A DNA stretch of 64,000 nucleotides from Agromyces mariniharenae (GTDB taxonomy: Bacteria > Actinomycetota > Actinomycetes > Actinomycetales > Microbacteriaceae), in assembly GCF_008122505.1 (NCBI RefSeq), contig NZ_VSSB01000001.1:852891-916890 (forward strand). Direction: 5' to 3'. Below are positions 5,641 through 23,594 of this stretch, piece by piece. Under the pieces are notes generated by a model. It was not told the DNA's origin. It saw only the letters and a program-made list of their open reading frames with translations, and ran no database searches. How positions within the stretch are numbered: the first letter of the stretch is position 1; each line of letters starts with the position of its first letter. Made by a program: the position numbers and the translations under genes.

Positions 5641-5691
5641 TGCAACCCCATAGTTGCACTTCTTGGAATGACTTGCAACCCTGTGATTGCA
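5641..5691. promoter_or_regulatory. Tandem operators TGCAAC-N6-GTTGCA, 33-bp pitch
   Basis: Two palindromes lie in the gap between the divergent SDR and VOC genes: TGCAAC-CCCATA-GTTGCA at 5641-5658 (perfect) and TGCAAC-CCTGTG-ATTGCA at 5674-5691 (one mismatch). Their starts are 33 bases apart, three helical turns. The same sequence with the same 33-base pitch recurs upstream of the MFS gene at 23544-23594, so one regulator probably controls both loci. None of the regulators in the window is obviously the partner. Confidence 0.75.
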
Positions 5692-5728
5692 CTTTTCGAC
5701 GTCTGCGGTCCTCCGTAGGCTCGGGCGC

Positions 5729-6169
5729 ATGAGCATCCAACGCATGGACAACGTCGCCATCGTCGTCGACGACCTCGACGAAGCCGTCGACTTCTTCACC
5801 GAGCTCGGCATGGAGCTGGAGGGACGCCAGGTGGTCGAGGGGCCCGTCCCCGACCAGACCGTGGGGCTCGACGGCGTCCGCACCGAGATCGCCATGATGC
5901 GGCCCCCCGACGGCCACGGTGGAGTCGAGCTGACCAAGTACCTCGCGCCCGCGGCATCCTGGCCCTCGCCCGCCAGCCCGGCGCCGAACACGCTGGGCCT
6001 GCACCGCGTCATGTTCGCCGTCGACGACCTCGAGGACACCGTCGCTCGCCTGCGACGGTTCGGCAGCGAGCCGCTGGGCGGGGTGGCGAACTACGAGGAC
6101 GTCTACCTGCTCTGCTACCTGCGCGGCCCCGCGGGCATCATCGTCGCGCTGGCCCAGCGGATCGGGTGA
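5729..6169 (+). CDS. VOC family (glyoxalase-like) protein
   Basis: A 146-residue vicinal-oxygen-chelate protein with two beta-alpha-beta-beta-beta modules: MDNVAIVVDDLDEAVDFFTE at the start and LGLHRVMFAVDDLEDTVARL from about residue 91. Members are lyases, dioxygenases or drug-binding proteins; the metal ligands cannot be assigned safely. The ATG at 5729 lies seven bases after TAGGCT, a leaderless-type promoter. It is divergent from the SDR gene and shares its paired TGCAAC operators, so the two are probably co-regulated. Confidence 0.85.
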   Translation: MSIQRMDNVAIVVDDLDEAVDFFTELGMELEGRQVVEGPVPDQTVGLDGVRTEIAMMRPPDGHGGVELTKYLAPAASWPSPASPAPNTLGLHRVMFAVDDLEDTVARLRRFGSEPLGGVANYEDVYLLCYLRGPAGIIVALAQRIG

Positions 6170-6202
6170 GCGCAGCGCTCAACGGAGCTCGACGCGACCG
6201 AG

Positions 6203-6245
6203 CTCAGCGCCCGACGCAGCTCAGCGCCCGACGCAGCTCAGCGCC
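6203..6245. repeat. 17-bp tandem repeat (2.5 copies) over a stop codon
   Basis: The 17-base unit CTCAGCGCCCGACGCAG occurs at 6203-6219 and 6220-6236, then partially at 6237-6245, where it includes the stop codon of the minus-strand RibD-like gene. It lies between two convergent genes. Similar arrays of different period occur at several other gene ends in the window. Confidence 0.85.
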
Positions 6246-6777
6246 GGACCGGCGCGTACTTCGCGGCGATGATGCCCGACTCGTAGGTCTCGAGGCTGAG
6301 GAGCCGCAGGCCCACCGGATGCGGCGTGCGCAGCCGGTCCTTGGCGTTGCCCACCATGAACGGGTGGATGCCGGCGTGCACCTCGTCGACCAGGCCGGCG
6401 TCGACGAGCGTCGCGGCGAGCCCGCCGTAGCCGTGCGAGATGATCGAGTCGTACCGATCGCGCAGCTGCCGCACCGCCTCGGCCACGTCGCCCTCGATGA
6501 GGGTCGCGTTCCAGTCGAGCGGGCCGTTCAGGGTCTTCGACGCGACGTACTTCGGCAGCGCGTTGTAGTGGTCCGCGAAGCCGCGGTCATCGGTCTGCTT
6601 GGGCCAGTACTCGCGGAAGAACTCGTAGCTCTCGCGCCCGAGCAGCACTGCGTCGGCGCCGAAGACGAGTTCGTCCGAGGCCCGCTGCACCCCCGGATCG
6701 TTCTCGTCGAACCACTGGTCCATCTGGTCGAATGCCCCGTCGAGCGTCATCTCGAATGAGATCGTCACCTTTCCCAT
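6238..6777 (-). CDS. Dihydrofolate reductase family protein (RibD C-terminal-like)
   Basis: A 179-residue RibD/DHFR-fold reductase. It begins MGKVTISFEMTLDGAFDQMD, has DAVLLGRESYEFFREYW near residue 50, and ends with a family-typical DEVHAGIHPFMVGNA strand and loop. It resembles the protein at 765-1364 in layout but has clearly diverged. I place the start at the ATG at 6777, where the conserved first strand begins; the frame extends 12 codons further upstream without support. Substrate unknown. It stands as a single gene with its end inside a tandem repeat. Confidence 0.8.
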   Translation of the reverse strand: MGKVTISFEMTLDGAFDQMDQWFDENDPGVQRASDELVFGADAVLLGRESYEFFREYWPKQTDDRGFADHYNALPKYVASKTLNGPLDWNATLIEGDVAEAVRQLRDRYDSIISHGYGGLAATLVDAGLVDEVHAGIHPFMVGNAKDRLRTPHPVGLRLLSLETYESGIIAAKYAPVRR

Positions 6778-6843
6778 GCGCTCCAGCCTGCCCGCTTCGC
6801 CGCCGGATGTCACCGGCTTGCGCGGCGCGGTGGCTTTCCGCCG

Positions 6844-7275
6844 TCACTCGCCCGTCGGAGCGTGGCACAGCTGTTCGCGCACCCACTCCGCGGCATCCGA
6901 TTGGGGCAGCTCGCCGGAACGCACGAGACGGACGAACTCGATGGCCTCGTCGCTGAGTCGCCCGTCCGCGGTGTCAGGCCCATCGCGCAGCACGTGGGTG
7001 GTGAGCCATCGCGTCATCGCTCCACCGAGCCGCGCCGCGACGGCGACGGTCCCGGCGAAGTGCCGCGCCTGCCCGTCGGTGTCGTCGTCCACGGCGGGAC
7101 GGAAGCCACGGCCGCGCAGGCGATCGCGGCCACCGGATGCCGCGTCGAACGGCCAGAGCGGCCCCCGACGCACCCCGGCCGCACGTCCCAACTCCTTCAG
7201 GAACCGCCGGCTCGAGTACCCACGGGCGGCGAGTCGATCGATCGACTCGGCGAGCGCAGCGCAGGCATCCATCAC
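6844..7275 (-). CDS. Hypothetical protein
   Basis: A 143-residue (GTG at 7275) or 142-residue (ATG at 7272) protein of no family I recognise. It is rich in Arg and Asp/Glu, has no signal peptide or membrane span, and contains RHFAGTVAVAARLGGAMTRW in the middle and an acidic C-terminal helix around SDEAIEFVRLVRSGELPQSD. Coding potential is supported by strong third-position G/C and by a clear leaderless promoter: TACAGT six bases before the ATG. That -10 is one arm of a palindrome shared with the divergent lipoprotein gene. Confidence 0.6.
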   Translation of the reverse strand: MMDACAALAESIDRLAARGYSSRRFLKELGRAAGVRRGPLWPFDAASGGRDRLRGRGFRPAVDDDTDGQARHFAGTVAVAARLGGAMTRWLTTHVLRDGPDTADGRLSDEAIEFVRLVRSGELPQSDAAEWVREQLCHAPTGE

Positions 7276-7276
7276 G

Positions 7277-7299
7277 TCACTGTATGGCCGATACAGTGA
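7277..7299. promoter_or_regulatory. Perfect 9-bp palindrome with back-to-back -10 elements
   Basis: TCACTGTAT and ATACAGTGA are perfect reverse complements around GGCCG. Each arm contains TACAGT reading outward, so the palindrome supplies a -10 hexamer for both the minus-strand hypothetical gene (start at 7272/7275) and the plus-strand lipoprotein gene (start at 7336). A protein bound here would cover both promoters at once. TGTAT/ATACA half-sites are typical of TetR or GntR operators, but no such gene is adjacent. Confidence 0.6.
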
Positions 7300-7335
7300 G
7301 CGCAGCCCATTCCCGACCCTGCGAACCGGAGACCG

Positions 7336-8064
7336 ATGAAGCCCACCGTCCGACCGGCCGCTGCGGCGATCGTCGCAGCGACCCTTCTCGCGTTGACCGG
7401 CTGCACCCTCGGAGCCACGCCCACGCCTTCACCGACGGCCGGGCCGTCGACGGCGAGCCCGACTCCGACGGTCGAGCCCGCACCCATCGATCCGCTCACC
7501 ACGGTCACCGAGATCGTCGTGCGTCCCGAGCATCTGGATCTCCTCGACGCACAGGGCGCCGTGGTGACGACTCTCTCCTATGACGCCGACGCTGCGGCGT
7601 TCCTCGGCGCTCTCGAGACCGTCCTCGGCGCGACGCCCGTTCCCACCGAGTACATGGCCAGCATGGAGACGCCGGCGCGAACCGAGTACCAGTGGGACGG
7701 GCTGATGGTGGCGGACGATCATGAAGAGGTCGTGTCCGAGAACGGGCTCGGAGGCTACGGCCAGATCGAGATGAACGTGAGCGTGTACGCCACGGCCCCG
7801 ACCGTGGGCAGCGGGGTGATCGTTCGGACGGTGAACGGCTATCAGCCCGGGGGCGATGCGCAGGCGCTCGCCGCCGAGCTCGGGGAGCCCTGGACTGGCA
7901 ACGGCTACGACCAGGTGCGTGTCGAGACCGGCGAGCCGATCGGCGAGCAGCAGCCCTACAACGAGTACGAGAACGCGTACTCGGTCGCGGTGAACACCTG
8001 GGAGTGGAAGGGCGCGTCGAACACGATCCTCGCACCGTGGAATTTCGGGATCGGGCACGTCTGA
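7336..8064 (+). CDS. Hypothetical lipoprotein
   Basis: A 242-residue exported lipoprotein: a short basic start, a hydrophobic stretch and the lipobox LALTGC, followed by a Pro/Thr/Ser-rich linker to about residue 50. The mature domain has no motif I can assign. It starts with ITEIVVRPEHLDLLDAQG-like text (actual VTEIVVRPEHLDLLDAQG) and ends with repeated aromatic patches such as NTWEWKG. A cell-surface binding or regulatory role is possible but unproven. It is transcribed divergently from the hypothetical gene at 6844-7275 through a shared palindromic promoter. Confidence 0.7.
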   Translation: MKPTVRPAAAAIVAATLLALTGCTLGATPTPSPTAGPSTASPTPTVEPAPIDPLTTVTEIVVRPEHLDLLDAQGAVVTTLSYDADAAAFLGALETVLGATPVPTEYMASMETPARTEYQWDGLMVADDHEEVVSENGLGGYGQIEMNVSVYATAPTVGSGVIVRTVNGYQPGGDAQALAAELGEPWTGNGYDQVRVETGEPIGEQQPYNEYENAYSVAVNTWEWKGASNTILAPWNFGIGHV

Positions 8065-8082
8065 CACGTTCCGATCCTGCGG

Positions 8083-8844
8083 TCAGGATGCCGCGCCGCC
8101 GCCCTCGACCGCGACGATGCGGTGGTCCTCGGCGTGCGTCAGCTCGGTGCGCAGGAACAGCTCGTCGGTCGGCAGGCGCAGGTCGAGGCGGGCGAACGCG
8201 GCCACGCGCAGGTCGCCCGCATCGACCGCGAGCTCGAGCACGTGCCCGCCGAGGCTCCGGTCCTCGCTGAGGAAGTGCACGTGCAGCCCTGCGACCGCGA
8301 TCCCCTGGTAGATCGCGGGCGTCCAGAACCCCACGAGGGTGCCGCGGATGCCGCGCGCCACCGTCTCGACCTGGTGGCTCGTCACCTCCGCGAGCCGCGG
8401 GAGGGGATGGTGCTGCCGCGGCGTCACGCGCACGCGCACCTCCGAGAGGACGCCGTCGAACCGCACCGCATGGAAGAGGTTCCGGCTCGCGAGCGTCCCC
8501 TCGACGGATGCCGCGAAGCTCGCGACGTCCCGCGCGCCCTCGCCGCCGCCCATGCCGACGCCGACGCGGACCGCCGGCACGTCGGGGAATCGGCACACGA
8601 TCGCGAACGGGAGGATCTCGTCACCGCCCATCGCCACCGGCGGACCGTCGAGCGTGCACTCGATCGCGGTGCCGTCGAGGATGACGACCTCGCCGCCGAG
8701 GTGGTCGACGCAGCCGAGCCCGAAGTCGCCGATCGCGGTCGCCTCGTCGACGCGCATGCCCGACTCGTAGGCGCCGGCGAGCAGCGCATCGAGCACCGCG
8801 AACTGCGTCACCGCGGCATCCGTCTCGTGCAGTGGAGTCGTCAC
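8083..8844 (-). CDS. budA: Acetolactate decarboxylase
   Basis: A 253-residue enzyme of the AlsD/BudA family, which decarboxylates 2-acetolactate to acetoin. Family signatures are QFAVLDALLAGAYESGM near the N-terminus, GDFGLGCVDHLGGEVVILDG in the first half, and the metal-site segment GLHVHFLSEDRSLGGHVLEL, with the His-x-His pair and the later His that bind zinc. I choose the GTG at 8844 because TACGCT lies seven bases upstream; the much longer frame to 8997 is not family-like. No acetolactate synthase gene is adjacent, so the gene is an orphan and probably draws on acetolactate from branched-chain amino-acid synthesis. Confidence 0.9.
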   Translation of the reverse strand: MTTPLHETDAAVTQFAVLDALLAGAYESGMRVDEATAIGDFGLGCVDHLGGEVVILDGTAIECTLDGPPVAMGGDEILPFAIVCRFPDVPAVRVGVGMGGGEGARDVASFAASVEGTLASRNLFHAVRFDGVLSEVRVRVTPRQHHPLPRLAEVTSHQVETVARGIRGTLVGFWTPAIYQGIAVAGLHVHFLSEDRSLGGHVLELAVDAGDLRVAAFARLDLRLPTDELFLRTELTHAEDHRIVAVEGGGAAS

Positions 8845-8950
8845 GGTTCGGAGCGTACTCTCGCCCTCGGGTGGCGGGATCACTCGATCACGGCGAGGCA
8901 TCGGCGTAGCGTGGCCGGGGACACGACGCATCCGACGAGGGGGTCGAGCG

Positions 8951-9418
8951 ATGGCCGAGATGACACCGATCCAGCCGTGCCTGTGGTTCGACGACAACGC
9001 CCGCGAGGCGATGGAGTACTACGTCAGCGTGTTTCCGAACTCGCGGATCGAGCGGATCGACGAGTATCCCGACGAGTCGCTCGACGAGCACTTCACGGGG
9101 ATGTCGGGCAAGGTGCTGAACGGCGAGTTCACGCTGAACGGCGTGCGGTTCACGTGCCTCGACGGTGGGCCGCTCTTCCGGTTCAACGAGTCGATCTCGT
9201 TCATCGTCTGGTGCGCCGACCAGGACGAGATCGACTTCTACTGGTCGAAGCTCTCGCACGTGCCCGAGTCGGAGCAGTGCGGCTGGTGCAAGGACCGCTT
9301 CGGCGTGAGCTGGCAGGTCATCCCCCGCATCATGGGCGACCTCACGAGCACCCCGGCGCAGGTCCAGGCCTTCATGCAGCAGAAGAAGATCGTGATCGCG
9401 GAGCTCGAGAACGCCTGA
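8951..9418 (+). CDS. PhnB-like VOC protein (3-demethylubiquinone methyltransferase-like domain)
   Basis: A 155-residue protein. MTPIQPCLWFDDNAREAMEY at the start and the later CGWCKDRFGVSWQVIPRIM segment match the PhnB/3-dmu-9_3-mt VOC domain. The name of that domain is historical; most members have no proven methyltransferase activity. The start follows a GAGGGGG ribosome site. It is a single gene between divergent and convergent neighbours, with no visible regulator. Confidence 0.85.
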   Translation: MAEMTPIQPCLWFDDNAREAMEYYVSVFPNSRIERIDEYPDESLDEHFTGMSGKVLNGEFTLNGVRFTCLDGGPLFRFNESISFIVWCADQDEIDFYWSKLSHVPESEQCGWCKDRFGVSWQVIPRIMGDLTSTPAQVQAFMQQKKIVIAELENA

Positions 9419-9436
9419 CCGCGGTCCCGCGCAGGG

Positions 9437-9484
9437 GATGCCGCAGGCTCCCGATGCCGCGAGCTCCGGATGCCGCGAGCTCCG
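9437..9484. repeat. 16-bp tandem repeat, three copies
   Basis: GATGCCGCGAGCTCCG occurs at 9453-9468 and 9469-9484, with a diverged copy at 9437-9452. It fills most of the gap between two convergent genes and ends three bases before the stop codon of the zinc-ribbon gene. The unit contains the core of the genome-wide decamer CGGATGCCGC. Confidence 0.85.
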
Positions 9485-9487
9485 GCC

Positions 9488-9745
9488 TCAGCGCAGCCGG
9501 CCGCCGTGCGCGGCGAGGTCGGCCGCGCGCTTGGCGAACTCGCGCGTCACTTCCGTGACCGCGCCGCAGTGCTCGCAGACGACGACGTACTGCCGCGAGA
9601 ACGTGAAGAGCGGGAGGAAGAACAGCCAGAGCCGGCTGCCGCTCTCGATGACGTGCTGCTCGGCGTCCTCGTGGCAACGGTCGCAGCGGAAGCGCGCCAC
9701 GGCCAGCTCCCGCTCACGCGGGAACACGCCGATGAACAGGAACAT
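9488..9745 (-). CDS. Small zinc-ribbon protein
   Basis: An 85-residue protein with two CxxC pairs, CDRC near residue 22 and CEHC near residue 57, the pattern of a single zinc ribbon. Between them is a hydrophobic aromatic stretch WLFFLPLFTF, which may be buried or associate with membrane. The ATG at 9745 is six bases after TAGCCT, a leaderless arrangement. No function is known; such proteins are common single genes in Microbacteriaceae. Confidence 0.75.
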   Translation of the reverse strand: MFLFIGVFPRERELAVARFRCDRCHEDAEQHVIESGSRLWLFFLPLFTFSRQYVVVCEHCGAVTEVTREFAKRAADLAAHGGRLR

Positions 9746-9820
9746 GCCTCAAGGCTACGGACCTCACTGCGCGGACGGCACCGTGCAATTGATGTCGGAC
9801 GATCCCGCCAGACTGCGGTC

Positions 9821-10300
9821 ATGCCCGCTTCCGACTTCGACTTCCTGCTCGGCACGTGGGAGGTCGAGCACGACCGGCTCGTCGACCCCCTCGGCCCGCC
9901 CGACGGTCCCCGCATGAGATTCCGGTCGACCGCCGCCGTGCAGCCGATCCTCGATGGCCTCGGCACGGCCGACGAGACTCGTGGCAGGCTGCCCGATGGA
10001 ACCGGGTTCGTCGGGTTCTCGCTCCGGCTCTACGACCCGGCCTCCGATGCGTGGGCGATCTGGTGGGCGTCGAAGGCGCGGCCGGGCGTGCTCGACGACC
10101 CCGTTCGTGGACGCTTCGTCGACGGTCGCGGCACGTTCGTGGGGCCGGCCGAATCCGACGGACGGAGCTTCCTCGCCCGATTCCACTGGCTCGACACGGC
10201 AGGGCCGCACCCGATCTGGGAGCAGGACTTCTCGTTCGACGACGGTGCCACCTGGCAGCCGGTGAACTGGCGCATGGTGCACACGCGCGTCGGCTCGTGA
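9821..10300 (+). CDS. DUF1579-like conserved protein
   Basis: A 159-residue protein beginning MPASDFDFLLGTWEVEHDRL, which matches the lipocalin-like DUF1579 family start (short helix, then GTW and an antiparallel barrel). It has many Trp residues, including AIWWASKARPG in the centre and WQPVNWRMVHTR at the end. No catalytic residues can be assigned. The ATG is six bases after CAGACT, so it is likely leaderless. The oxidase gene begins 45 bases downstream in the same direction and could be co-transcribed or use its own promoter. Confidence 0.7.
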   Translation: MPASDFDFLLGTWEVEHDRLVDPLGPPDGPRMRFRSTAAVQPILDGLGTADETRGRLPDGTGFVGFSLRLYDPASDAWAIWWASKARPGVLDDPVRGRFVDGRGTFVGPAESDGRSFLARFHWLDTAGPHPIWEQDFSFDDGATWQPVNWRMVHTRVGS

Positions 10301-10345
10301 CGACGTCGCCGTGACCCGAGCGTGGTCGCGCGCGACAATCGAAGG

Positions 10346-11539
10346 ATGAGCACCACCAGCGACGACCAGAGCAGCTTCGATGCGGAGGTCGCGGTCATCG
10401 GACTCGGCGCGGTCGGGTCCAGCGCCGCCTGGCGGCTCGCCGCGCGCGGGGTCGACGTGATCGGGTTCGAGCAGTTCGAGCCCGGGAACGCGTGGGGCGG
10501 GTCCACGGGCAGGACGCGCCTCTTCCGGGTAGCGTGCCTGGAGCACCCGGGGCTCACGCCCATCGCGCGGCGCGCCCGCGACCTGTGGCGCGAGCTCGAG
10601 GCATCCGCTGGTCAGGCACTGTTCTTCGAGACCGGCGGCCTCATGATCGGACCGTCCGACTCGCACATCATCGAGGGCACGCTCGCGGCCGCCGAGGCGC
10701 ACGACCTGCCCGTCGAGCGGCTCGACGCCGACGAGATCGCGAGCCGCTTCCCCGCGCACGCCCGCACGAATCCAGGCGACGTCGGCGTCTGGGATCCCGA
10801 GGCCGGCATCTTGCGCCCCGAGGCGGCGATCATCGCGGCGGCCGACGCCGCCCGCGCAGCCGGTGCGCGCATCCTCACCGGCACGCGCGTGGTCGCGATC
10901 GAGCCCGACGCGAACGGCGTCACGGTGCTGACGGAGGTCGCGAAGTACCGCGTGCGGCGGGTCGCCGTGACCTCGGGCCCCTGGATCACCCGCTTCGTGC
11001 CCGAACTGCCGCTCACGCCGCACCGCGTGATCATGACGTGGTTCCGCCCCCGCGAGGGACACGACGCCGACCTCGACGTGCTGCCGGTGTTCATCCGCAG
11101 CGTGCCCGGGCACGACACGTGGATCTGGGGCCACGGCGTCGTGCCGGCGTCGGGCCCCGGCTCGAAGGAGGGGTTCGGCGGCTTCGACGCGAAGGTCGGA
11201 CCCGAGTTCGACGGCCCGTTCGTGGCCGACGACCCCGATGCGATCGACCGCGTCGTGCATCCCGGCGAGACCGACGGCATCCGCGACCTCGTCGCCGCGA
11301 CGTTCCCCGACCTCGAGCCCGAGCCGTCGGGCGTGACGACCTGCATCATGACGCACACGCCCGACCAGCTGTTCGTCGTCGGGGTCACGGACCATCCGCG
11401 GGTCGTCGTCGGCGGCGGCTGCTCGGGTCACTCGTTCAAGCACGCGTCGGCGCTCGGCGAGCTCGTCGCGCAGTCGGTCGTCGGCGAGGAGCACTTCACG
11501 GATGCCGCGTTCCTCGACCCGCGGCGGTTCAGCGGCTGA
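10346..11539 (+). CDS. solA: N-methyl-L-tryptophan oxidase / monomeric sarcosine oxidase family protein
   Basis: A 397-residue FAD amine oxidase. The dinucleotide motif VAVIGLGAVGSSAAWRLAAR is at residues 14-33, followed by a GGSTGRTRLFRVA segment typical of the MSOX/SolA group. The C-terminal part contains TCIMTHTPDQLF, whose Cys (about residue 333) aligns with the cysteine that binds FAD covalently in this family, and a GGCSGHSFKHASALGELVA segment. The expected reaction is oxidative N-demethylation of a secondary amino acid, giving formaldehyde and hydrogen peroxide. Substrate preference cannot be told from sequence, so the symbol is tentative. The ATG follows GACAAT by six bases. Confidence 0.8.
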   Translation: MSTTSDDQSSFDAEVAVIGLGAVGSSAAWRLAARGVDVIGFEQFEPGNAWGGSTGRTRLFRVACLEHPGLTPIARRARDLWRELEASAGQALFFETGGLMIGPSDSHIIEGTLAAAEAHDLPVERLDADEIASRFPAHARTNPGDVGVWDPEAGILRPEAAIIAAADAARAAGARILTGTRVVAIEPDANGVTVLTEVAKYRVRRVAVTSGPWITRFVPELPLTPHRVIMTWFRPREGHDADLDVLPVFIRSVPGHDTWIWGHGVVPASGPGSKEGFGGFDAKVGPEFDGPFVADDPDAIDRVVHPGETDGIRDLVAATFPDLEPEPSGVTTCIMTHTPDQLFVVGVTDHPRVVVGGGCSGHSFKHASALGELVAQSVVGEEHFTDAAFLDPRRFSG

Positions 11540-11674
11540 CGGGCAGGACGCCCGAGCTCACCGCGCCTGCATCCGTGGGAACACCGCCCCGCCGCACCCG
11601 ACGCCGCCGCGCCAGTCAACCTCTGGCCCCGCCCCATGCCCGAGCGTAGATTGGCCACGAACGAGGAGGTTCGC

Positions 11675-13690
11675 GTGACCACCATCCGAGAGTCCACCGT
11701 TCCCCCGGGCGAGGGCGTCGACGTGCCGCAGCCGCATGCCAACGGACAGCACGGCGACGCGCAGCCGCCGCACGTCGACGAGCAGCAGTCGCGCGCCGTC
11801 GCCGAGGCGGCGCGCGAGCAGGAATGGCGGAAGCCGAGCTTCGCGAAGGGCCTGTACCTCGGCCAGTTCGACCTCGACCTCATCCATCCGCACCCCAGGC
11901 CGGCTCCCGATCGCCGCGACCGCGGCGAGCACTTCATGGCGGACCTCGAGGCGTACCTGCGCACGGTCGACGGGGCGCAGATCGAGCGCGATGCGCGCAT
12001 CCCCGACGAGGTCTACCAGGGGCTGGCCGAGCTCGGATGCTTCGGCATGAAGATCCCCGTCGAGTACGGCGGCCTCGGGCTCGGGCAGTACTACTACAAC
12101 CACGCCCTGACGATGATCGGCACCGTGAGCCCGGCCGTCGTCGCACTGCTCTCGGCGCACCAGTCGGTCGGACTCCCCGAACCGCTCGTGCTCGCGGGCA
12201 CCGAGGAGCAGAAGCGGCAGTACCTGCCGCGTTGCGCGACGGGTGCGATCAGCGCGTTCCTGCTCACCGAGCCCGAGGTCGGCTCCGACCCGGCCCGGTT
12301 GCGCGCGACCGCGGTGCCGAGCGAGGACGGCTCCGAGTACGTGATCGACGGCACCAAGCTCTGGACCACCAACGGCGTCGTCGCCGAGCTGCTCGTGGTG
12401 ATGGCCCGCGTCCCGAGGTCCGATGAGCACCGCGGCGGCATCAGCGCCTTCATCGTCGAAGCGGATGCCCCGGGCATCACCGTGCACCGACGGAACTCCT
12501 TCATGGGGTTGCGCGGCCTCGAGAACGGGCTGACGTCGCTGCGCGAGGTGCGCGTGCCGAAGGAGAACCTCATCGGCCGCGAGGGCGAGGGACTCAAGAT
12601 CGCGCTGACCACCCTCAACGCCGGACGGCTCGCGATCCCCGCGATCTGCGCAGGCGCCGGCAAGTGGAGCCTCAAGATCGCGCGCGAGTGGTCGAAGGCA
12701 CGCGTGCAGTGGGGGAAGCCGATCGGCGAGCACGCCGCCGTGGCGCACAAGATCGCGTTCATCGCCGCGACGACGTTCGCGCTCGAGGCCGTCGTCGACC
12801 TGTCGGGCGTACTCGCCGACGAGGGACGCAAGGACATCCGCATCGAGGCGGCGCTCGCCAAGCTCTGGGCGTCGGAGATGGCGTGGAAGATCGCCGACGA
12901 CCTCGTGCAGATCCGTGGCGGCCGCGGGTTCGAGACGGCCCCGTCGCTCGCCGCGCGCGGCGAGCGCGCGGTGCCCGCCGAGCAGATGCTCCGCGACCTC
13001 CGCATCAACCGCATCTTCGAGGGCTCGAGCGAGATCATGCGCCTCCTGATCGCACGCGAGGCCGTCGACGCCCACCTCAAGGCGGCCGGCGACCTGATCG
13101 ACCCGCACCAGGACCTGGCCGGCAAGCTCAAGGCCGCCGTCTCGGCGAGCGGGTTCTACGCCCGCTGGTTGCCGCAGCTCGTCGCCGGCAAGGGCGACAT
13201 CCCCACGGCGTTCGACGAGTTCGGCGCGCTCGCGACCCACCTGCGCTACGTCGAGCGAACGAGTCGCAAGCTCGCCCGCGAGACCTTCTACGGCATGGCT
13301 CGCTGGCAGGGCGGCCTCGAGCACAAGCAGGGCTTCCTCGCCCGAGTCGTCGACATCGGCGCCGAGCTGTTCGCCGTCTCCGCGTCGTGCGTGCGCGCGA
13401 TGATGATCGCCGCCGACTCCCCCGAGGACGGCAAGGCGGCGTACCAGCTCGCCGCCACCTTCGCCGAGCAGTCGCGCCACCGCACCGAGCGCCTGCTCGA
13501 CGAGCTCTGGCACAACACGGATGCCACGGACGAACGCCTCGCCGAGCGCGTGCTCGACGGCCGCTACACCTGGCTCGAGCAGGGCATCGTCGACGTGAGC
13601 GAGGGCACCGGACCCTGGATCACCGAGGAGATCCCGGCCGACGCGGCCGAGAACGTGGCGCGGCGGGTCATCCGGCCGACGACGGCGTAG
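11675..13690 (+). CDS. Acyl-CoA dehydrogenase, long form
   Basis: A 671-residue flavoprotein that introduces the alpha,beta double bond in acyl-CoA. The first 60 residues are a low-complexity lead. The dehydrogenase core shows FLLTEPEVGSDPARL, a long helical region with WGKPIGEHAAVAHKIA, GGRGFETAPSLAARGE, and the catalytic Glu in RIFEGSSEIMRL (about E449). About 200 extra C-terminal residues make it longer than a standard 380-residue enzyme, resembling the very-long-chain or FadE-type layout. The GTG at 11675 has AGGAGG five bases upstream; an ATG at 11636 is in frame but lacks one. Its 3' end overlaps the convergent AlkZ-like gene by 23 bases. Confidence 0.9.
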   Translation: MTTIRESTVPPGEGVDVPQPHANGQHGDAQPPHVDEQQSRAVAEAAREQEWRKPSFAKGLYLGQFDLDLIHPHPRPAPDRRDRGEHFMADLEAYLRTVDGAQIERDARIPDEVYQGLAELGCFGMKIPVEYGGLGLGQYYYNHALTMIGTVSPAVVALLSAHQSVGLPEPLVLAGTEEQKRQYLPRCATGAISAFLLTEPEVGSDPARLRATAVPSEDGSEYVIDGTKLWTTNGVVAELLVVMARVPRSDEHRGGISAFIVEADAPGITVHRRNSFMGLRGLENGLTSLREVRVPKENLIGREGEGLKIALTTLNAGRLAIPAICAGAGKWSLKIAREWSKARVQWGKPIGEHAAVAHKIAFIAATTFALEAVVDLSGVLADEGRKDIRIEAALAKLWASEMAWKIADDLVQIRGGRGFETAPSLAARGERAVPAEQMLRDLRINRIFEGSSEIMRLLIAREAVDAHLKAAGDLIDPHQDLAGKLKAAVSASGFYARWLPQLVAGKGDIPTAFDEFGALATHLRYVERTSRKLARETFYGMARWQGGLEHKQGFLARVVDIGAELFAVSASCVRAMMIAADSPEDGKAAYQLAATFAEQSRHRTERLLDELWHNTDATDERLAERVLDGRYTWLEQGIVDVSEGTGPWITEEIPADAAENVARRVIRPTTA

Positions 13691-17459: not shown

Positions 17460-17586
17460 CCGCTCAGTCTGCCCCGACCCGCCCACACCCGTGCATCGAA
17501 CGGACCCGGCGAGCCGCTCGCTCACCGACCGCGCATCCCGGGCGTGGCAGGCCGGCGCGCCACCCGCGATCGACGAGACTTGCGAC

Positions 17587-18531
17587 GTGCTTCACGTCCG
17601 GCTGATCGTCCCGCCCGAACTCCGCGGCGCGGTCGACGCCGTGATCGCCGACACCGCCCATGAGGTCACGAACCTCGTCGTGCATCCGGGTGCCGGGGTG
17701 TCGCCGGCCGGCGACGTGGTGCTGTTCGATGTCGATCGCACCGAGGCGAGCGACCTGCTCGAGCGGCTGGAGGCCGTCGGGCTCGGCGAGTCGGGCTCCA
17801 TCTCGGCCGAGCACCTCGACCTCAGGATCGATGGCCGCAGCAGCCGGGAGGAGGACTTCGGCGGCGAGGACGACGCCGTCGTCTGGGAGGAGGTCGAGGC
17901 CCGCACGAGCGACGAGGTGCGCCTCTCGGCGACGTTCCTCACGTTCATGTCGATCGCGACGATGATCGCCGCGGTGGGCGTCGTGATCGACCAGCCGATC
18001 CTCATCGTCGGGGCGATGGTGGTCGGACCCGAGTTCGGACCGCTCGCAGCGATCGCGGTCGGCATCGTGCGGCGTCGGCCGCGCATCGCATGGCGCTCGG
18101 TCATGACGCTCCTCACCGGATTCGCGTTCGCCATCGTGGTGACGATCGCCTTCGGGGCGATCCTGCGGTCGGTCGGCGTGTTCCGGGGGAACCCGTTCGT
18201 GGAGGCGCATCCGTCGACCGAGTTCATCTGGTCGCCCGACGCGCTCAGCTGGATCGTGGCCTTCCTGGCGGGCATCGCCGGCATCCTCTCGCTCACGTCC
18301 GCGAAGTCGGGCGCCCTGATCGGCGTGCTCATCTCGGTGACCACGATCCCCGCGGCCGCGGCGATCGCGGTCGCCGTGTCCGTCGGCGCGTGGGAGGAGG
18401 CCGGGCCTGCGACCCTGCAGCTGCTGATCAACCTGACCTCGATCGTCGTCGCCGGCTCGCTCACCCTGACGGTGCAGCTCGCCGCGCAGCGGATGTCGCG
18501 GACGCGCCAGCGAACTCGAATGCAGTCCTGA
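17587..18531 (+). CDS. DUF389 (TIGR00341-type) membrane protein
   Basis: A 314-residue protein with a soluble N-terminal domain (residues 1 to about 110, starting VLHVRLIVPPELRGAVDAVI) and five or six membrane helices beginning at ATFLTFMSIATMIAAVGVVI. The segment QPILIVGAMVVGPEFGPLAA is the hallmark DUF389 loop. Function is unknown. The GTG at 17587 is six bases after GAGACT, the leaderless pattern; no Shine-Dalgarno is visible. Confidence 0.85.
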   Translation: MLHVRLIVPPELRGAVDAVIADTAHEVTNLVVHPGAGVSPAGDVVLFDVDRTEASDLLERLEAVGLGESGSISAEHLDLRIDGRSSREEDFGGEDDAVVWEEVEARTSDEVRLSATFLTFMSIATMIAAVGVVIDQPILIVGAMVVGPEFGPLAAIAVGIVRRRPRIAWRSVMTLLTGFAFAIVVTIAFGAILRSVGVFRGNPFVEAHPSTEFIWSPDALSWIVAFLAGIAGILSLTSAKSGALIGVLISVTTIPAAAAIAVAVSVGAWEEAGPATLQLLINLTSIVVAGSLTLTVQLAAQRMSRTRQRTRMQS

Positions 18532-18615
18532 CCCGGACAACGATCGGCAAGTCCTCACCGACGCCGCAACGGATGCCGCGGGGCCGCCGCCGGTTCGTAC
18601 GCCCTGTCTCGTTCC

Positions 18616-19113
18616 TCACCGCGCCGGGCAGCTGATGCCGACGGCGGCGAGGTCCTGCTTCCAGGTCGTGGCCGCGACCGCCTCGCCGTACTCGTCCACA
18701 GCGGCCTCGAACGTCGCCGTATCGCCCGTCTCCGCCGCGGCGGCGATTTTCGCCTCGGCATCATCGGACCACGCGCGGTACGCATCGAAGAGGTCGGCCG
18801 CATCCTGCTCGGTTTCGGCGACCGGAATCGACTCGACCGCGTCGTCGAAGGCCGTGCGCAGCCTGACGCGCTCGGACTTCAGGTCGAGATAGCTCTCGAG
18901 CGACAGCTCGGCGCCGCCGCGAACGGCGATGGAATCCGCGACGAGCGCACGGCACAGCTCATTCACCCTCAGGACGTAGTCATCGCCGCTCGACGGGTTC
19001 GACGCCGCGCTGGTGCTGTCCGAGTCGGACTCGAGAGGCTCGGATGTGCCGGCGCACCCGGTGATGCCGGCGATCGCCGCCGCCGCGGCGATCAGGATCG
19101 ACCATCGCCGCAC
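18616..19113 (-). CDS. Hypothetical lipoprotein
   Basis: A 165-residue exported lipoprotein: VRRWSILIAAAAAIAGITGC gives a signal peptide with lipobox GITGC, then a Ser/Asp-rich linker. The mature part is mostly helical and acidic, with YVLRVNELCRALVADSIAVR and a second Cys near the C-terminus (GISCPAR) that could form a disulfide. No family recognised. The GTG at 19113 is favoured because the signal peptide begins there; an upstream ATG at 19161 would give an unusually long positive N-region. Confidence 0.65.
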   Translation of the reverse strand: MRRWSILIAAAAAIAGITGCAGTSEPLESDSDSTSAASNPSSGDDYVLRVNELCRALVADSIAVRGGAELSLESYLDLKSERVRLRTAFDDAVESIPVAETEQDAADLFDAYRAWSDDAEAKIAAAAETGDTATFEAAVDEYGEAVAATTWKQDLAAVGISCPAR

Positions 19114-19219
19114 GGAACCGATCCTCGTCCGCGACCAGCGGAGCGTCAAGCGACCCGCCATGCGGAACACCGGCCCATCGGCCTGCCCCGACCCGCCCAC
19201 AGGGAGACCGCCGGAGCGC

Positions 19220-20302
19220 TCACCCGAACGTGAAGCAGTACGCCTCGACGTCGGCCTCGAGGAAGTCGATCTCGATCACGCGATCGGCGACCCGGCCCGC
19301 CTGGCGGACGAGCTGGTACGTGTTCTGCTCGGTGACCACGCCCCGGCCGTCGTCGTCGACGTCGGTCCCACCCGACCGTCCCGCGGCCTGACCGTCGAGC
19401 GTGACCCGGAACGGCACGGAGGCTCCGGGATCCACCGGTCCCATGACGAGGTTGACGTCTCGGGCGTGGAAGGCGAACGAGATCCGGCCGCCCGGCTCGT
19501 TGAGGACCGCGGCGTGGCTCGCGACCGTCCAGTCGCCCGTGAGGTCCCACGTGTTGGTGAGCAGCCGGCGCCCGCCCGAGTACACGTGCCGGCGGTCGTA
19601 GTACTCCCCGTGCTCCGAGAGGAACCCGCTGCTCTGCCGGTAGCCGAGGTAGGTCTCGGGGCTCCGCAGCGAACGCCAGTCGGCCGCCACCTCGAGACCC
19701 TGCGGCTCCACCAGGACGAGGTCGGTGTCGAGGTCTCGCGCCCCCGCCTCGACGAGGAGCTGCTGGATCGCCATCTCGGTCATGGCGTACTCGCCCTCGC
19801 CGAAGTGGTGGAACCGCAGCCGGCCGCTCGCGTCGGCGAGGTAGATCGCCGGCCAGTAGCGGTTCGCGAACTCGTTCCAGACGCCGTAGTCGCTGTCGAC
19901 CGCGACCGGGTAGCGGATCCCGAGGTTCCGGGTCTGCGCCATCACGTTCCGCAGGTCGGCCTCGAACCCGAACTCGGGGGTGTGCACGCCGACGATGGTC
20001 AACCCGGCGTCCTGGTACTTCTCGGCCCAGGCCCGCAGGTAGGGCAGGGTCCGCAGCCAGTTGACGCAGGTGTAGGTCCAGAAGTCGACGAGCACGACCC
20101 GGCCGCGAAGGGCCTCTGGCGTCAGCGGCTCGGAGTTGAGCCAGCTCGTCGCGCGGCCGAACGAGGGCAGGCGCCCCTCGTCGGGCAGCACGTCGTGGTC
20201 GCCCGCCAGCCGGTGGGCGAGCGAGCGGAACAGGCCGCCGCGGCCCTCCCGCGCGATCACGGCGTCGGCGGCGGATGCGTCGCCGCGGTCGTCATCGGAC
20301 AT
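19220..20302 (-). CDS. DipZ C-terminal-like redoxin with the resolving Cys replaced
   Basis: A 360-residue soluble protein that matches the periplasmic half of DipZ-type proteins: a thioredoxin domain (about residues 45-200) followed by a carbohydrate-binding-like beta domain. DipZ proteins have C-x-x-C in the thioredoxin active site; here the text is FWTYTCVNWLRTLPYL, so the second Cys is Trp. Only one active-site Cys remains, plus one near the C-terminus (AYCFTFG). There is no signal peptide, so it is cytoplasmic as annotated. The ATG at 20302 has GGGAGG five bases upstream. Confidence 0.8.
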   Translation of the reverse strand: MSDDDRGDASAADAVIAREGRGGLFRSLAHRLAGDHDVLPDEGRLPSFGRATSWLNSEPLTPEALRGRVVLVDFWTYTCVNWLRTLPYLRAWAEKYQDAGLTIVGVHTPEFGFEADLRNVMAQTRNLGIRYPVAVDSDYGVWNEFANRYWPAIYLADASGRLRFHHFGEGEYAMTEMAIQQLLVEAGARDLDTDLVLVEPQGLEVAADWRSLRSPETYLGYRQSSGFLSEHGEYYDRRHVYSGGRRLLTNTWDLTGDWTVASHAAVLNEPGGRISFAFHARDVNLVMGPVDPGASVPFRVTLDGQAAGRSGGTDVDDDGRGVVTEQNTYQLVRQAGRVADRVIEIDFLEADVEAYCFTFG

Positions 20303-20405
20303 GTGAGCCTCCCGTGCTGATGGTCGGTCGCCCGGGTCATGGTCGATCGTCGTCCCGCCACGCGGCTTCCGCAAGGTGCGCCCGCGCGGCCCGGGGCGGT
20401 GGGGA

Positions 20406-20858
20406 TCAGGCGCCGGAGTCCCCCGCGTCCGCCAGGCCCGCGTACTCGGGGTTCCCGGCGATGAACGCGGCCACGACCGGGCAGAGCACGGTGAAGCGCG
20501 TGCCCTGCTCGCGGAGGTCGTCGAGCGCGTCGGCGATGAGGTCGGTCGCGATGCCGCGGCCTCGGAACTCGGGTTGGACCGTCGTGGTGATGAGGGTGAT
20601 CCGGTCGCCGTCGAGGTCGTAGCGGATGGTCGCGATCTCCCTGCCCTCGAGCGTCGCGGCGAAGACGCCCCGTTCGTCGTCGCGGCGCACCTCGATCTCG
20701 GCGTCGGCGTCCTCCGACGGCGTGTCGACCGCGCGCAGCGCGTCGGCGGTCACCTCGTCGACGAGTGCCGCGGTGCCCTCGTCGAGGGTGCCGCTCCCGT
20801 CGGGATACCCCGCGGCATCCGGATACTCGAACCGCTCGGAATCATCGCCGGTGTTCAT
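20406..20858 (-). CDS. GNAT-fold N-acetyltransferase-like protein (Gcn5-like, YjdJ type)
   Basis: A 150-residue protein. Residues 1-60 are an acidic lead with no assigned domain. From EIEVRRDDERGVFAATLEGR onward it follows the small YjdJ-type GNAT domain, with acetyl-CoA-binding QPEFRGRGIATDLIADALDD and the final TVLCPVVAAFIAGNPEYAGL. The Cys and the NPEY segment are typical of this subgroup. The substrate is unknown. The ATG at 20858 has a strong GGAGGGG ribosome site. Confidence 0.8.
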   Translation of the reverse strand: MNTGDDSERFEYPDAAGYPDGSGTLDEGTAALVDEVTADALRAVDTPSEDADAEIEVRRDDERGVFAATLEGREIATIRYDLDGDRITLITTTVQPEFRGRGIATDLIADALDDLREQGTRFTVLCPVVAAFIAGNPEYAGLADAGDSGA

Positions 20859-20991
20859 CGCGCCCCTCCGCTCCGTTCTCGGCTCGGTCGAGCCGCTCAT
20901 GAACGAGGACCAGTCAGGTCCCGCCATTGTGACAGCGCCACGCCGGTGCCACCACGGCCTGGTTTCCGAGACTGAGGTTTCCTCATGTCCA

Positions 20992-21020
20992 TTGACGCCC
21001 CACCGGCGTGGGCGTAGACC
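20992..21020 (+). promoter_or_regulatory. Sigma-70-type promoter of the ACT-domain gene
   Basis: TTGACG (20992-20997) and TAGACC (21015-21020) are separated by exactly 17 bases and lie 28 bases before the ATG at 21048. The spacer contains the small inverted repeat CCACCGGCGTGG. A direct repeat of GGTTTCC lies just upstream. Confidence 0.6.
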
Positions 21021-21047
21021 TGAGGTCACTGGGAAGGAGGTGCCGAA

Positions 21048-21443
21048 ATGGCGAAGGATCTCTACCTGACCCTCGAGGACAAGCCCGGTGAAGCGGCACG
21101 ACTCGGCGAGGCGCTCGGCAACGCGGGCGTCAACATCGAGGGGCTGTGCGCAATGGCCGACGGAGGGCGGAGCACGGTGCACATCCTCGTCGACGACGCC
21201 GCACGTGCTCGGACCGCACTCGAGGGAGCGGGCATCACGGTCGATCGCGAGACCGAGGTGCTCATCAGTCCGCCGCTCGGCGAGGAGTGGGTCGCCACGC
21301 CAGGTGGATTCGGCAGGATGGCGCGAGCGCTGGCCGAGGCCGACGTGAACATCTCGTTCGTCTATGTGGCCGGCGACAGTCGCCTCGTGCTCTCGACGAG
21401 CGACGACGCCAAGACCGCGGAGCTGCTGCAGGCGATGATGTAG
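21048..21443 (+). CDS. Tandem ACT-domain amino-acid-binding protein
   Basis: A 131-residue protein made of two ACT domains: MAKDLYLTLEDKPGEAARLG with VNIEGLCAMADGGRSTVHIL, then GGFGRMARALAEADVNISFV ending at LQAMM. ACT domains bind amino acids or other small ligands as sensory modules; no enzyme or DNA-binding domain is attached. The ribosome site GGAAGGAGG lies six bases before the ATG. It probably acts as a stand-alone sensor whose partner is not evident here. Confidence 0.85.
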   Translation: MAKDLYLTLEDKPGEAARLGEALGNAGVNIEGLCAMADGGRSTVHILVDDAARARTALEGAGITVDRETEVLISPPLGEEWVATPGGFGRMARALAEADVNISFVYVAGDSRLVLSTSDDAKTAELLQAMM

Positions 21444-21462
21444 GCCGCGGCCCGCACCGAAC

Positions 21463-21777
21463 TCAGAGCCCCTCGGCGAGCTCCTTGATCGCGGCGAGCC
21501 GGCGGTCCCACTCGGCGCCGATGGCGTCGAGGCGGCGCGCGGTGTCGCTGAGCTGCGAGCCGATCACGCGGTAGCGCACCTCGCGACCGACCCGCACGGG
21601 CTCGACGAGGCCGACCTCCTGCAGCACGGCGAGGTGCTTGGCGATGGCCTGGCGGGTGACGGGCAGGCGCCCGGCGAGGGCGGACGCCGACGCGTCGCCC
21701 TCGCCGAGTGCCGCCAGGATGCTCCACCGGGTCTCGTCGCCGAGTGCGGCGAACACGGGGACCAGCGCCTGGGTCAT
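21463..21777 (-). CDS. ArsR/SmtB family transcriptional regulator
   Basis: A 104-residue winged-helix protein. VFAALGDETRWSILAALGEG opens the fold, the recognition helix is around RLPVTRQAIAKHLAVLQEVG, and the wing is EPVRVGREVRYRVI. No metal-binding Cys cluster is visible, so a metal sensor role is unlikely. Its ATG overlaps the stop of the upstream SRPBCC gene by four bases (ATGA). This ArsR plus SRPBCC pair is a common two-gene unit in actinobacteria, in which the SRPBCC protein may bind the ligand. Confidence 0.85.
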   Translation of the reverse strand: MTQALVPVFAALGDETRWSILAALGEGDASASALAGRLPVTRQAIAKHLAVLQEVGLVEPVRVGREVRYRVIGSQLSDTARRLDAIGAEWDRRLAAIKELAEGL

Positions 21778-22253
21778 GCGCTGCCCTCGAGCAGGGCGAC
21801 CAGCTTGTCGAGCTCGCCGTCCCAGCCCGCGCGGTGCGCTTCCATGTTCGCGGCCGGGTCGGACGTCATGTCGAACCCGGTCTCCACGACGGTGAGCTGG
21901 GTGCCGTTCGACACGGACTCGAGGGTGAAGGTGAACACGGTCGCATGGTCGTCGAGCTGCTCGGGCACCACGCCGCTCGCGTCGTCGTTGCCCCAGCGGT
22001 ACGAGACCATGCGCGGCGCGTCGATCGCCTCGATGCGCACCGGCACGGCGCCGTTGCCATCGAAGGTCAGCGTGCCCGTCGCGCCGACGCCGGCGCCGCC
22101 GAATTCGGCTCGGCCGAACCACTTCGAGATGTGCTCGGGCTCGGTCACCGCCGACCAGACCTTCTCGACGGGGGCGGAGATGTGGATCGTGCGCCGCACG
22201 GTGAACTGGCCCTCGTCGATGACGGATGCCGGGTTGTCGGTCATGTGCTCCAT
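21774..22253 (-). CDS. SRPBCC (AHSA1/START-like) domain protein
   Basis: A 159-residue START/AHSA1-type protein with a hydrophobic ligand cavity. Motifs are FTVRRTIHISAPVEKVWSAV at the start, EPEHISKWFG after it, and the closing GFDMTSDPAANMEAHRAGWD helix. The ATG at 22253 has AAAGGA six bases upstream; the earlier ATG at 22268 has none. Translationally coupled to the ArsR gene. The MFS gene ends 27 bases upstream in the same direction, so all three may share a transcript and the TGCAAC operators. Confidence 0.85.
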   Translation of the reverse strand: MEHMTDNPASVIDEGQFTVRRTIHISAPVEKVWSAVTEPEHISKWFGRAEFGGAGVGATGTLTFDGNGAVPVRIEAIDAPRMVSYRWGNDDASGVVPEQLDDHATVFTFTLESVSNGTQLTVVETGFDMTSDPAANMEAHRAGWDGELDKLVALLEGSA

Positions 22254-22280
22254 GATGGTTCCTTTCATTGGGATGTGCCG

Positions 22281-23516
22281 TCACCGGGTCGGAGGTTCGG
22301 TGACGGATGCCGCGTGAGCGGGTACGGTGACGGATGCCGCGGCCGTGGGCCTCAGCGCGCTCGTCGCCCACGCGGCGGCGATCGCGACGACGGCGATGGC
22401 GATGCCGGCGACGACGGCGAGCCGGACGCCCCCGCCGTCGATCGCCAGGCCGCCCGCGAACGCGCCGAACGCGATGCCGGCGTTCACCGCGGAGGCGGGC
22501 AGCGACGACGCGAGCGGCGCGCCGGGTCCGGCGAGGCTCACGACGCGATGCTGGATCGACGGCCCCGTGGCCATGCCGAACAGGCCGATGCCGAGCACGG
22601 CGAGCGCCGTGCCGATCGCGTTCGATCCGAAGGCGAGCAGGGCGACGAGCGACGCCGACACGCCGATGGCGCCGACGATGAGCATGCGCGATGCGTTCGC
22701 ATCCGCGAACCGGCCGCCGCCGAACGAGCCGACGGCCGTCGCGACGCCGTAGACGAGGAGGTAGATCGAGACCGCCGGCCCCGAGACATCCGTGACCTGG
22801 TCGAGGAACGGCACGAGGTAGGTGATCGCGGCGAGCATGGCCGCGAACGTCAGGAAGCTCACCGCGAGCACCGCGAGGACGCGCGGCGCGAACGCGTGCC
22901 GCGCCTGGCCCATCGCACCGCTGCCGCGGGGCGTGGGCACCGACGGCAGCACGATGACGGCGAGCACGAGCACGACGGCGCCCGCCACGACGACGGCGAC
23001 GAAGGAGCCGCGCCAGCCGACCGCCTGCCCCAGCAGCGTGCCGATCGGCAGCCCGAGCGCGCTCGACATCGCGAAGCCCGAGATGATGACCGCCATCGCC
23101 CGGCCGGTGCGCTCGGGCGGCACGATCGAGGTCGCGGTGACCATCGCCGCGGCGATGAACAGTCCCTGCACGGCGCCGATCACGACGCGGGCGCCGACGA
23201 AGACCGGGTAGTCGGCCATGAGCGCGGGCAGCAGGTTCGCCAGCACGAACACGGCGGTCGCTGCGATCAGCACGTGCCGACGGTCGAAGCGCGTCACGAG
23301 GAACGTGAGCAGCGGTCCGCCGATCGCGAGCCCCAGTGCGTTCGCCGTGACGAGCACGCCCGCCATGGGCACCGAGACGGCGAGGTCGGCGGCGATCAGG
23401 TCGATCATGCCGACGACGAGCATCTCGGCGCAGCCCATGGTGAACGCGCCCGCGAACAGGACGGCGAGCACGGTGGTGGCCCGGGTGGTCGGCTGCGGCG
23501 CTGCGGTGATCGTCAT
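22281..23516 (-). CDS. MFS efflux transporter (DHA1-type)
   Basis: A 411-residue protein with 12 predicted membrane helices, starting LAVLFAGAFTMGCAEMLVVG. The cytoplasmic loop 2-3 reads TFLVTRFDRRHVLIAATAVF and helix 5 contains SSALGLPIGTLLGQAVGWRG, the drug/H+ antiporter motif C region of the DHA1 group. It is likely an exporter of a sugar or drug. The ribosome site GAGGAG lies five bases before the ATG. Two tandem TGCAAC palindromes lie 28-78 bases upstream and presumably control it. The C-terminal tail repeats AASVT twice through a 27-base DNA repeat. Confidence 0.85.
   Translation of the reverse strand: MTITAAPQPTTRATTVLAVLFAGAFTMGCAEMLVVGMIDLIAADLAVSVPMAGVLVTANALGLAIGGPLLTFLVTRFDRRHVLIAATAVFVLANLLPALMADYPVFVGARVVIGAVQGLFIAAAMVTATSIVPPERTGRAMAVIISGFAMSSALGLPIGTLLGQAVGWRGSFVAVVVAGAVVLVLAVIVLPSVPTPRGSGAMGQARHAFAPRVLAVLAVSFLTFAAMLAAITYLVPFLDQVTDVSGPAVSIYLLVYGVATAVGSFGGGRFADANASRMLIVGAIGVSASLVALLAFGSNAIGTALAVLGIGLFGMATGPSIQHRVVSLAGPGAPLASSLPASAVNAGIAFGAFAGGLAIDGGGVRLAVVAGIAIAVVAIAAAWATSALRPTAAASVTVPAHAASVTEPPTR
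22298..22341. repeat. 17-bp direct repeat, 27-base period, in the 3' end of the MFS gene
   Basis: CGGTGACGGATGCCGCG occurs at 22298-22314 and 22325-22341. It encodes an in-frame nine-residue repeat at the C-terminus of the MFS protein and includes the decamer CGGATGCCGC in both copies. It resembles the short arrays at other minus-strand gene ends. Confidence 0.75.
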
Positions 23517-23543
23517 GTCGGCTCCTCGTCTGCCTCGAAGTTC

Positions 23544-23594
23544 TGCAACCCTAGAGTTGCATATCGATCAGACCCATGCAACCCCTGAGTTGCA
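23544..23594. promoter_or_regulatory. Tandem operators TGCAAC-N6-GTTGCA, 33-bp pitch
   Basis: Two perfect palindromes, TGCAAC-CCTAGA-GTTGCA (23544-23561) and TGCAAC-CCCTGA-GTTGCA (23577-23594), lie just upstream of the MFS start at 23516. The starts are 33 bases apart, as at 5641-5691. The gap is AT-rich and would carry the MFS promoter, so repression by a protein bound at both sites is the simplest reading. Confidence 0.8.

Follow-up and report, generated by a model that had tools for sequence, protein, structure and literature searches.

Autorepression by an ArsR-type protein has been described in mycobacteria, where Rv2034, encoded in the Rv2034-Rv2035-Rv2036 row together with a Polyketide_cyc2 (SRPBCC-like) gene, is not inhibited by the metals tested and has a palindromic operator, CCGTAAGT-N4-ACTTACGG, at its own promoter (available portion of PMC3338718). 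A related arrangement is considered here in a stretch of 64,000 nucleotides from Agromyces mariniharenae (contig NZ_VSSB01000001.1, positions 852,891 to 916,890; the window, with coordinates counted from its first letter). The window contains two tandem pairs of the palindrome TGCAAC-N6-GTTGCA, one between genes for an SDR oxidoreductase and a VOC/glyoxalase-like protein (pair 1) and one ahead of a gene row for an MFS transporter, an AHSA1/SRPBCC protein and an ArsR-type winged-helix regulator of the HTH_20 type (pair 2). Comparison with related loci makes it very likely that both pairs are promoter-fused operators at which the ArsR-type protein encoded at 21463-21777 would bind and repress, and that the pitch within each pair is set by the promoter.

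The likeness to Rv2034 includes an SRPBCC gene that accompanies the ArsR gene (both are found in 104 of the 122 listed loci defined below), with co-transcription predicted, and a palindromic operator that would serve the regulator's own operon, given that a pair lies upstream in 95 of 108 ArsR loci. In our own comparison, the half-sites of both systems read TTRCR at positions 5-9 from the dyad. Within the available portion of the Rv2034 report (PMC3338718), there is one CCGTAAGT-N4-ACTTACGG palindrome rather than two of TGCAAC-N6-GTTGCA, the ArsR gene is apparently first in its row rather than last, and no promoter-embedded pair is seen.

The closest solved structure to the window protein is that of an ArsR family protein, PDB 2OQG (E 3.8e-39; profile E 1.6e-47), which by eye is nearly identical to the ArsR of a pair-bearing Rhodococcus locus (L126). 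A literature search found no paper naming 2OQG together with ArsR, and hence no operator or ligand, and among the matches listed no paper describing the TGCAAC-N6-GTTGCA motif for an ArsR.

It is well known that repressors can bind over core promoters, and in Tn10 tetO1/tetO2 and similar systems tandem palindromes lie over core promoter elements, for repression. Tn10 tetO differs in that its regulator belongs to another family and the palindrome arms are not themselves the -35 and -10. The variation here, as read from the DNA, is that the two palindromes would constitute the promoter, whichever way it is read. Bidirectional promoters have been described in which pseudo-symmetric DNA binds RNA polymerase either way, with one orientation excluding the other (available portion of PMC12825309).

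The operator pairs and their probable ArsR-type partner

Pair 1 consists of sites at 5641-5658 and 5674-5691, and pair 2 of a gene-proximal site at 23544-23561 and a gene-distal site at 23577-23594, with a start-to-start pitch of 33 bp in both. A preliminary description had reported these sites, their pitch and their location, one pair between SDR and VOC and the other in front of the MFS gene, and all four were found again where it had put them. All 12 specified bases are present in three copies, and the copy at 5674 has one mismatch. The arms of those three are perfect inverted repeats, as had been claimed, but the 6-bp cores are not palindromic. With up to two mismatches allowed, the window holds four sites against 0.66 expected, a number reached by none of 100 shuffles.

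The 4,082,539-base genome contains three perfect copies, all inside the window, and none of a reversed control pattern. With up to two mismatches, 26 sites are found for the motif and 26 for the control, and therefore the motif marks two places only. A wide regulon in this genome was rejected on the same count. One additional one-mismatch site lies on contig C2; otherwise nothing rises above background beyond the four sites of the window. Pairs at random spacings, which the preliminary description would have counted against itself, were not what was found: in 398 genomes of the family, with pitches of 21 to 51 allowed, there are 17 exact pairs, 15 at 33 and two at 34, and none for the control.

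Relatives were gathered from the side of the motif as 122 loci: species genomes were scanned for the pair at pitch 33, which gave at least 120 matches, and to the 120 listed the two loci of the window were added. All of the 120 listed stretches but one are from Actinobacteria, and the genera among the matches listed include Agromyces, Microbacterium, Leifsonia, Streptomyces, Rhodococcus, Mycolicibacterium, Gordonia, Nocardioides and others. The exception, L046 from Bacteroidales, is an unrelated tandem repeat, kept among the 122 for linkage and excluded from the strand-side count given below. An ArsR-type gene is found in 105 of these loci, an AHSA1/SRPBCC gene in 106, both in 104 and neither in 15. 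The commonest order is pair, AHSA1, ArsR. In 100 oriented loci a start preceded by a ribosome-site-like stretch was found, and in 72 of them the first such start is 20-31 bp past the pair.

The linkage also holds when read from the side of the regulator. A survey of ArsR genes gave 155 distinct places, of which 108 were fetched, the 47 others all scoring 117.3 bits or less. A pair (up to four mismatches) lies upstream in 95 of the 108, in comparison to none of 2160 mononucleotide-shuffled upstream regions, and these 95 all fall among the 101 better-scoring loci, with none among the seven low-scoring ones. In the family, a pitch-33 pair (up to three mismatches) occurs in 41 of 398 genomes and in no control, and a close ArsR (E at most 1e-25) is encoded in 80 of the 398 and in 40 of the 41 with a pair. 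The genome without one, G196, is 59% complete, and its site has three mismatches. In G021 a three-mismatch pair lies away from its ArsR, and another pair, at pitch 47, lies 1.7 kb upstream of the ArsR gene.

The most likely partner of the pairs is therefore the ArsR-type protein encoded by the last of the three genes in the predicted MFS operon (21463-21777). The preliminary description had seen no clear partner regulator in the window, yet this gene stands in the row that pair 2 heads. The winged-helix gene with the same pair for which it proposed to search is most likely this ArsR-type gene inside the window, and not an HxlR or MarR gene elsewhere. The protein matches PF12840 with 41.3 bits (cut-off 27) and the ArsR/SmtB subfamily model NF033788 with 63.9 (cut-off 55). 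Of 36 aligned members, 31, including that of the window, have no cysteine and five have one, with none invariant; thiolate metal sensing is therefore unlikely. Membership in the ArsR/SmtB fold family stands, and the metal-sensor label does not. A high-scoring copy of this ArsR is encoded by one gene in the genome, the next of 11 matches being 41% identical.

Predicted promoter geometry and pitch

The 101 of 106 AHSA1 loci that passed a distance filter were oriented toward the gene. Base 42 of the pair, the ninth base of the gene-proximal palindrome, was left unspecified (N) when searching; it is a T in all 101 loci, and its mirror base is A in only 47. This T is not demanded by the palindrome, yet it is invariant, and it falls where a promoter would have the T at -7. 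Read in this way across the 101 loci, TTGCAN at positions 14-19 of the pair, supplied by the upstream palindrome, would give the -35, and the downstream palindrome an extended -10 (TGCAACNNT) with T34-G35 as the extended TG, A38 as A(-11) and base 42 as T(-7). The hallmarks of a sigma-70 extended -10 promoter, namely -35 TTG, a spacer of 17-18, TG, A(-11) and T(-7), are thereby present, and the base at -12, an A, deviates. Pitch 33 corresponds to a 17-bp spacer between the -35 and -10, and pitch 34 to one of 18 bp.

Other pitches were seen in the 95 pair-bearing loci of the ArsR survey, where 47 pairs are at 33 (two three-site loci being assigned their 33-bp pair before counting), 34 at 34, 11 at 45-48 and three elsewhere. 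A(-11) and T(-7) are present in 47 of 47 loci at pitch 33, 30 of 34 at pitch 34 and 11 of 11 at 45-48. In two of the four exceptions at pitch 34 (L181, L225) the T comes one base earlier, restoring 17 bp. At pitches 45-48, the decisive class, the second palindrome lies farther down and the -10 falls outside both palindromes, with its offset from the -35 kept in 11 of 11; the full TANNNT is present in five of the 11, and A...T is found at three of 246 other inter-site offsets. In a locus at pitch 56 (L202), the place where a middle site would stand reads TGCCATCCT, with the right arm missing.

The pitch is best explained by this promoter geometry: 33 would be preferred because a 17-bp sigma-70 spacer separates the -35 in one palindrome from the -10 in the other. 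Three helical turns, offered earlier as the reason for the 33 bp, are not needed, given that 34 is common and that pairs at 45-48 keep the promoter in place; strict helical phasing was set aside as the main cause on the same grounds. An unlikely alternative, although the best placed of those weighed, is that two ArsR dimers, sitting about three turns apart on one face of the helix, touch each other and so fix the pitch, with the T reflecting a DNA-shape preference of the gene-proximal dimer. Indeed, 33-34 bp is close to three turns, a third site follows after 23 bp, about one turn less, in two loci (L199, L203), and Rv2034 protects about 33 bp (available portion of PMC3338718), so that adjacent dimers would abut. 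Against contact between dimers stand the near-equal frequency of 34 and 33 on the ArsR side (34 versus 47), the pitches of 45-48, out of phase with 33, a T that follows the direction of the gene and holds a fixed distance from the -35 outside the palindromes in 11 of 11 loci, and the TGCCATCCT without its right arm at L202. In L199 and L203 the palindromes lie at 0, 33 and 56 upstream of the ArsR gene, and the third, 23 bp beyond the second, is just past the predicted transcript start.

The T at -7 also follows the direction of the gene when the gene is not AHSA1. A list of 27 gene starts by pairs not directly ahead of AHSA1 was made by hand, omitting implausible sides (for example the plus sides of L066, L067, L087 and the second window pair and the minus side of L089) and the AHSA1 loci L031 and L048. 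Within 100 bp of the pair, the T is on the gene-ward strand in 19 of 19, and farther than 100 bp in five of eight. Over 235 sides longer than 450 bp, the T is associated with the presence of a called gene: 125 sides have both, 48 only the T, nine only a gene and 53 neither (Fisher p 2e-15).

Several observations weigh against reading the pairs as promoter-fused operators of this ArsR. The loci share descent, so that the counts are not independent events. The pair is a trait of one clade and not of every ArsR match, and in 13 of the 108 ArsR loci no pair was found upstream; three of these (the window, G240 and G364) have an MFS gene between, with a pair about 2 kb upstream, one is at a contig end, and of the rest three have one perfect palindrome, three have one with two mismatches and three have none. 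Residues of the presumed recognition helix fail to separate the two groups: this helix begins with RQA in 94 of the 95 pair-bearing loci and in 11 of the 13 that lack a pair, and therefore these residues do not account for the presence or absence of pairs. Five of the 105 ArsR calls are weak, with E above 1e-20 (L028, L084, L085, L116, L133), as are two of the 106 AHSA1 calls (L031, L133). Concerning the promoter, two pitch-34 loci (L222, L254) have no T at base 8 or 9, the full TRTG extension is present in only 48 of 101 loci, and the base at -12 in the embedded -10 is A and not the usual T, and therefore the promoter may be weak. By a rough gene caller, 48 sides carry the T without a called gene and nine carry a gene without the T. 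Finally, in a sample of the phylum one pair is at pitch 41 (G429), outside the classes, and one is at 45 (G443), and a control match occurred in one genome.

Two side observations concern sites of other kinds. A single perfect palindrome lies upstream of the ArsR gene in L266, L285 and L289, possibly a one-site ancestral or reduced state; in L285, TTGCG persists at the -35 position, with the rest of the upstream palindrome gone. The phylum scan used a relaxed pattern, which gave 12 places in 10 of 396 genomes and was not used for counts. Half of these places were rejected as another repeat, of TTTGCAA-type boxes at 28-bp pitch (G142:C2:1059972, G106:C1:1903165, G405:C11:437552, G558:C50:12362 and G590:C1:7513111), which look like the operator of another regulator, and the others comprise both pairs of the window plus single pairs at pitches of 33, 34, 41 and 45.

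The genes at the two pairs

Pair 2 heads a row of three minus-strand genes (21463-23516). The MFS transporter gene (22281-23516) scores 222 bits with the Cmx/CmrA model, under its cut-off of 400, and is followed after a 27-bp gap by the AHSA1/SRPBCC gene (21774-22253), the start of which was picked at 22253 from its ribosome site, the listed reading frame beginning at 22268. The ArsR gene, whose product is the proposed binder of the four palindromes, overlaps AHSA1 by ATGA, and the row is predicted to be a single operon. The T at -7 is present on the MFS strand only; the other strand has neither the T nor a called gene. From the sequence and the geometry of relatives, the minus-strand -35 is predicted as TTGCAT at 23576-23581, in the gene-distal palindrome, and the extended -10 as TGC-AACTCT at 23553-23561, in the gene-proximal one. 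On the far side of pair 2, a gene for a beta-lactamase-fold serine hydrolase (23613-24740, minus strand) reads toward the pair.

An identical arrangement of MFS, AHSA1 and ArsR genes is found in Agromyces ramosus (L061), and a similar MFS gene stands between pair and ArsR in G240 and G364 as well. In three Microbacterium loci (L056, L066, L089) an MFS gene has its own pair, with no such ArsR within about 3.5 kb, and L133 resembles these except for a weak ArsR match.

Pair 1 carries the -7 T on both strands, between the SDR gene (4807-5601, minus strand, with ATG at 5601 and GTG at 5619 also possible) and the divergent VOC gene (5729-6169, plus strand); therefore each of its palindromes is predicted to serve as the -35 in one direction and the -10 in the other. 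For VOC, the predicted -35 is TTGCAC at 5654-5659 in the first palindrome, followed by a 17-bp spacer and an extended -10, TGC-AACCCT, at 5674-5682 in the second. For SDR, on the minus strand, the second palindrome would give the -35 (TTGCAA, 5673-5678) and the first the extended -10 (TGC-AACTAT, 5650-5658). In contrast to the shared symmetric -10 of the bidirectional promoters mentioned above (available portion of PMC12825309), there are two separate predicted -10s, at 5650-5655 (minus) and 5677-5682 (plus). Their centres are separated by 27 bp, and each coincides with the predicted -35 for the other direction, inside a repressor palindrome.

A gene for the same SDR family adjoins a pair in eight loci, seven from Agromyces, including the window, and one from an actinobacterial metagenome-assembled genome. 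That VOC regularly accompanies the SDR pair is not supported, given that the opposite flank varies among the loci compared. Downstream of VOC, a gene for a RibD_C-type reductase is found at 6238-6777. The SDR pair of L035 likewise has a RibD_C gene next to it, and in L087 a relative of the window reductase is encoded some 3 kb away from the SDR pair.

Of ten genomes sampled from the genus, four have two pairs, four have one and two have none. Six genus genomes have two pairs 18-38 kb apart, the distances being 18 kb in the window, 26 in G240, 26.5 in G280, 32 in G393, 32 in A. ramosus and 38 in A. tardus. In all five of these that were checked, the six less G240, the SDR pair is one of the two. 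Ten proteins encoded beside pairs that lack AHSA1 were scanned for families; one has none, and the others include YCII, RibD_C, glyoxalase-like, 3-dmu-9_3-mt, DUF899, aminotransferase and further MFS proteins, which suggests a flavour of detoxification and efflux.

Proposed regulation and its meaning

In the direction of the gene, the -35 (TTGCAN) would be provided by the upstream palindrome through its right arm, and the extended -10 (TG-C-AACNNT) by the downstream one through its left arm and a further three bases, with a 17-bp spacer. In the absence of inducer, one ArsR dimer would sit on each palindrome and cover both promoter elements, so that SDR, VOC and the MFS/AHSA1/ArsR operon would be off. 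A signal that is probably not a metal would free the ArsR and turn on export, by the Cmx-like MFS protein, and modifying enzymes. The response would be autoregulated. The SDR/VOC pair may be a symmetric two-way core promoter, whose two orientations should exclude each other.

That the ArsR activates from these sites instead of repressing is improbable; Rv2034 is reported to activate some of its targets, but the sites here lie over the predicted -35 and -10, a position suited to repression, and the Rv2034 promoter itself is repressed (available portion of PMC3338718). Least probable of all is that the pairs belong to another regulator, of the HxlR, MarR or TetR type, with ArsR no more than a frequent neighbour: neither ArsR nor AHSA1 is within the stretch examined in the 15 listed loci noted above, but most of these carry SDR, MFS or similar genes, fitting regulation from elsewhere, and L046 is unrelated; among the 40 largest protein clusters near pairs, the other regulator-like ones (named by eye) occur in four loci or fewer each and never within 250 bp of a pair; ArsR is encoded in 40 of the 41 genomes with the motif; and, in our comparison, the half-site shares its TTRCR register with the site footprinted for Rv2034 (available portion of PMC3338718).

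Repression by the ArsR-type protein therefore remains the preferred account. The suggestion that one regulator links SDR, VOC and MFS through a two-site operator is upheld by comparison, and side-by-side binding is plausible. Looping over 33 bp, also suggested earlier, is unlikely: the 33-34 bp within pairs, in the window and most relatives, is not the distance of a DNA-looping operator pair. Nothing seen in the sequence calls for joint looping between the two loci, each pair lying at its own promoter.

More broadly, and with less assurance than for the window itself, it is more likely than not that a widespread actinobacterial ArsR clade controls its genes from a symmetric operator-promoter, each repressor palindrome serving as the -35 one way and as the extended -10 the other, so that one base, a T at -7 on either strand, decides whether transcription runs one way, the other or both. 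This ArsR clade, for whose closest solved structure, 2OQG, the literature search found no function, thereby gains a predicted operator, a predicted promoter and a small predicted set of targets, among them SDR, VOC and MFS efflux genes. A further suggestion is that the distance between tandem operators can derive from the geometry of RNA polymerase rather than from contacts between repressors.

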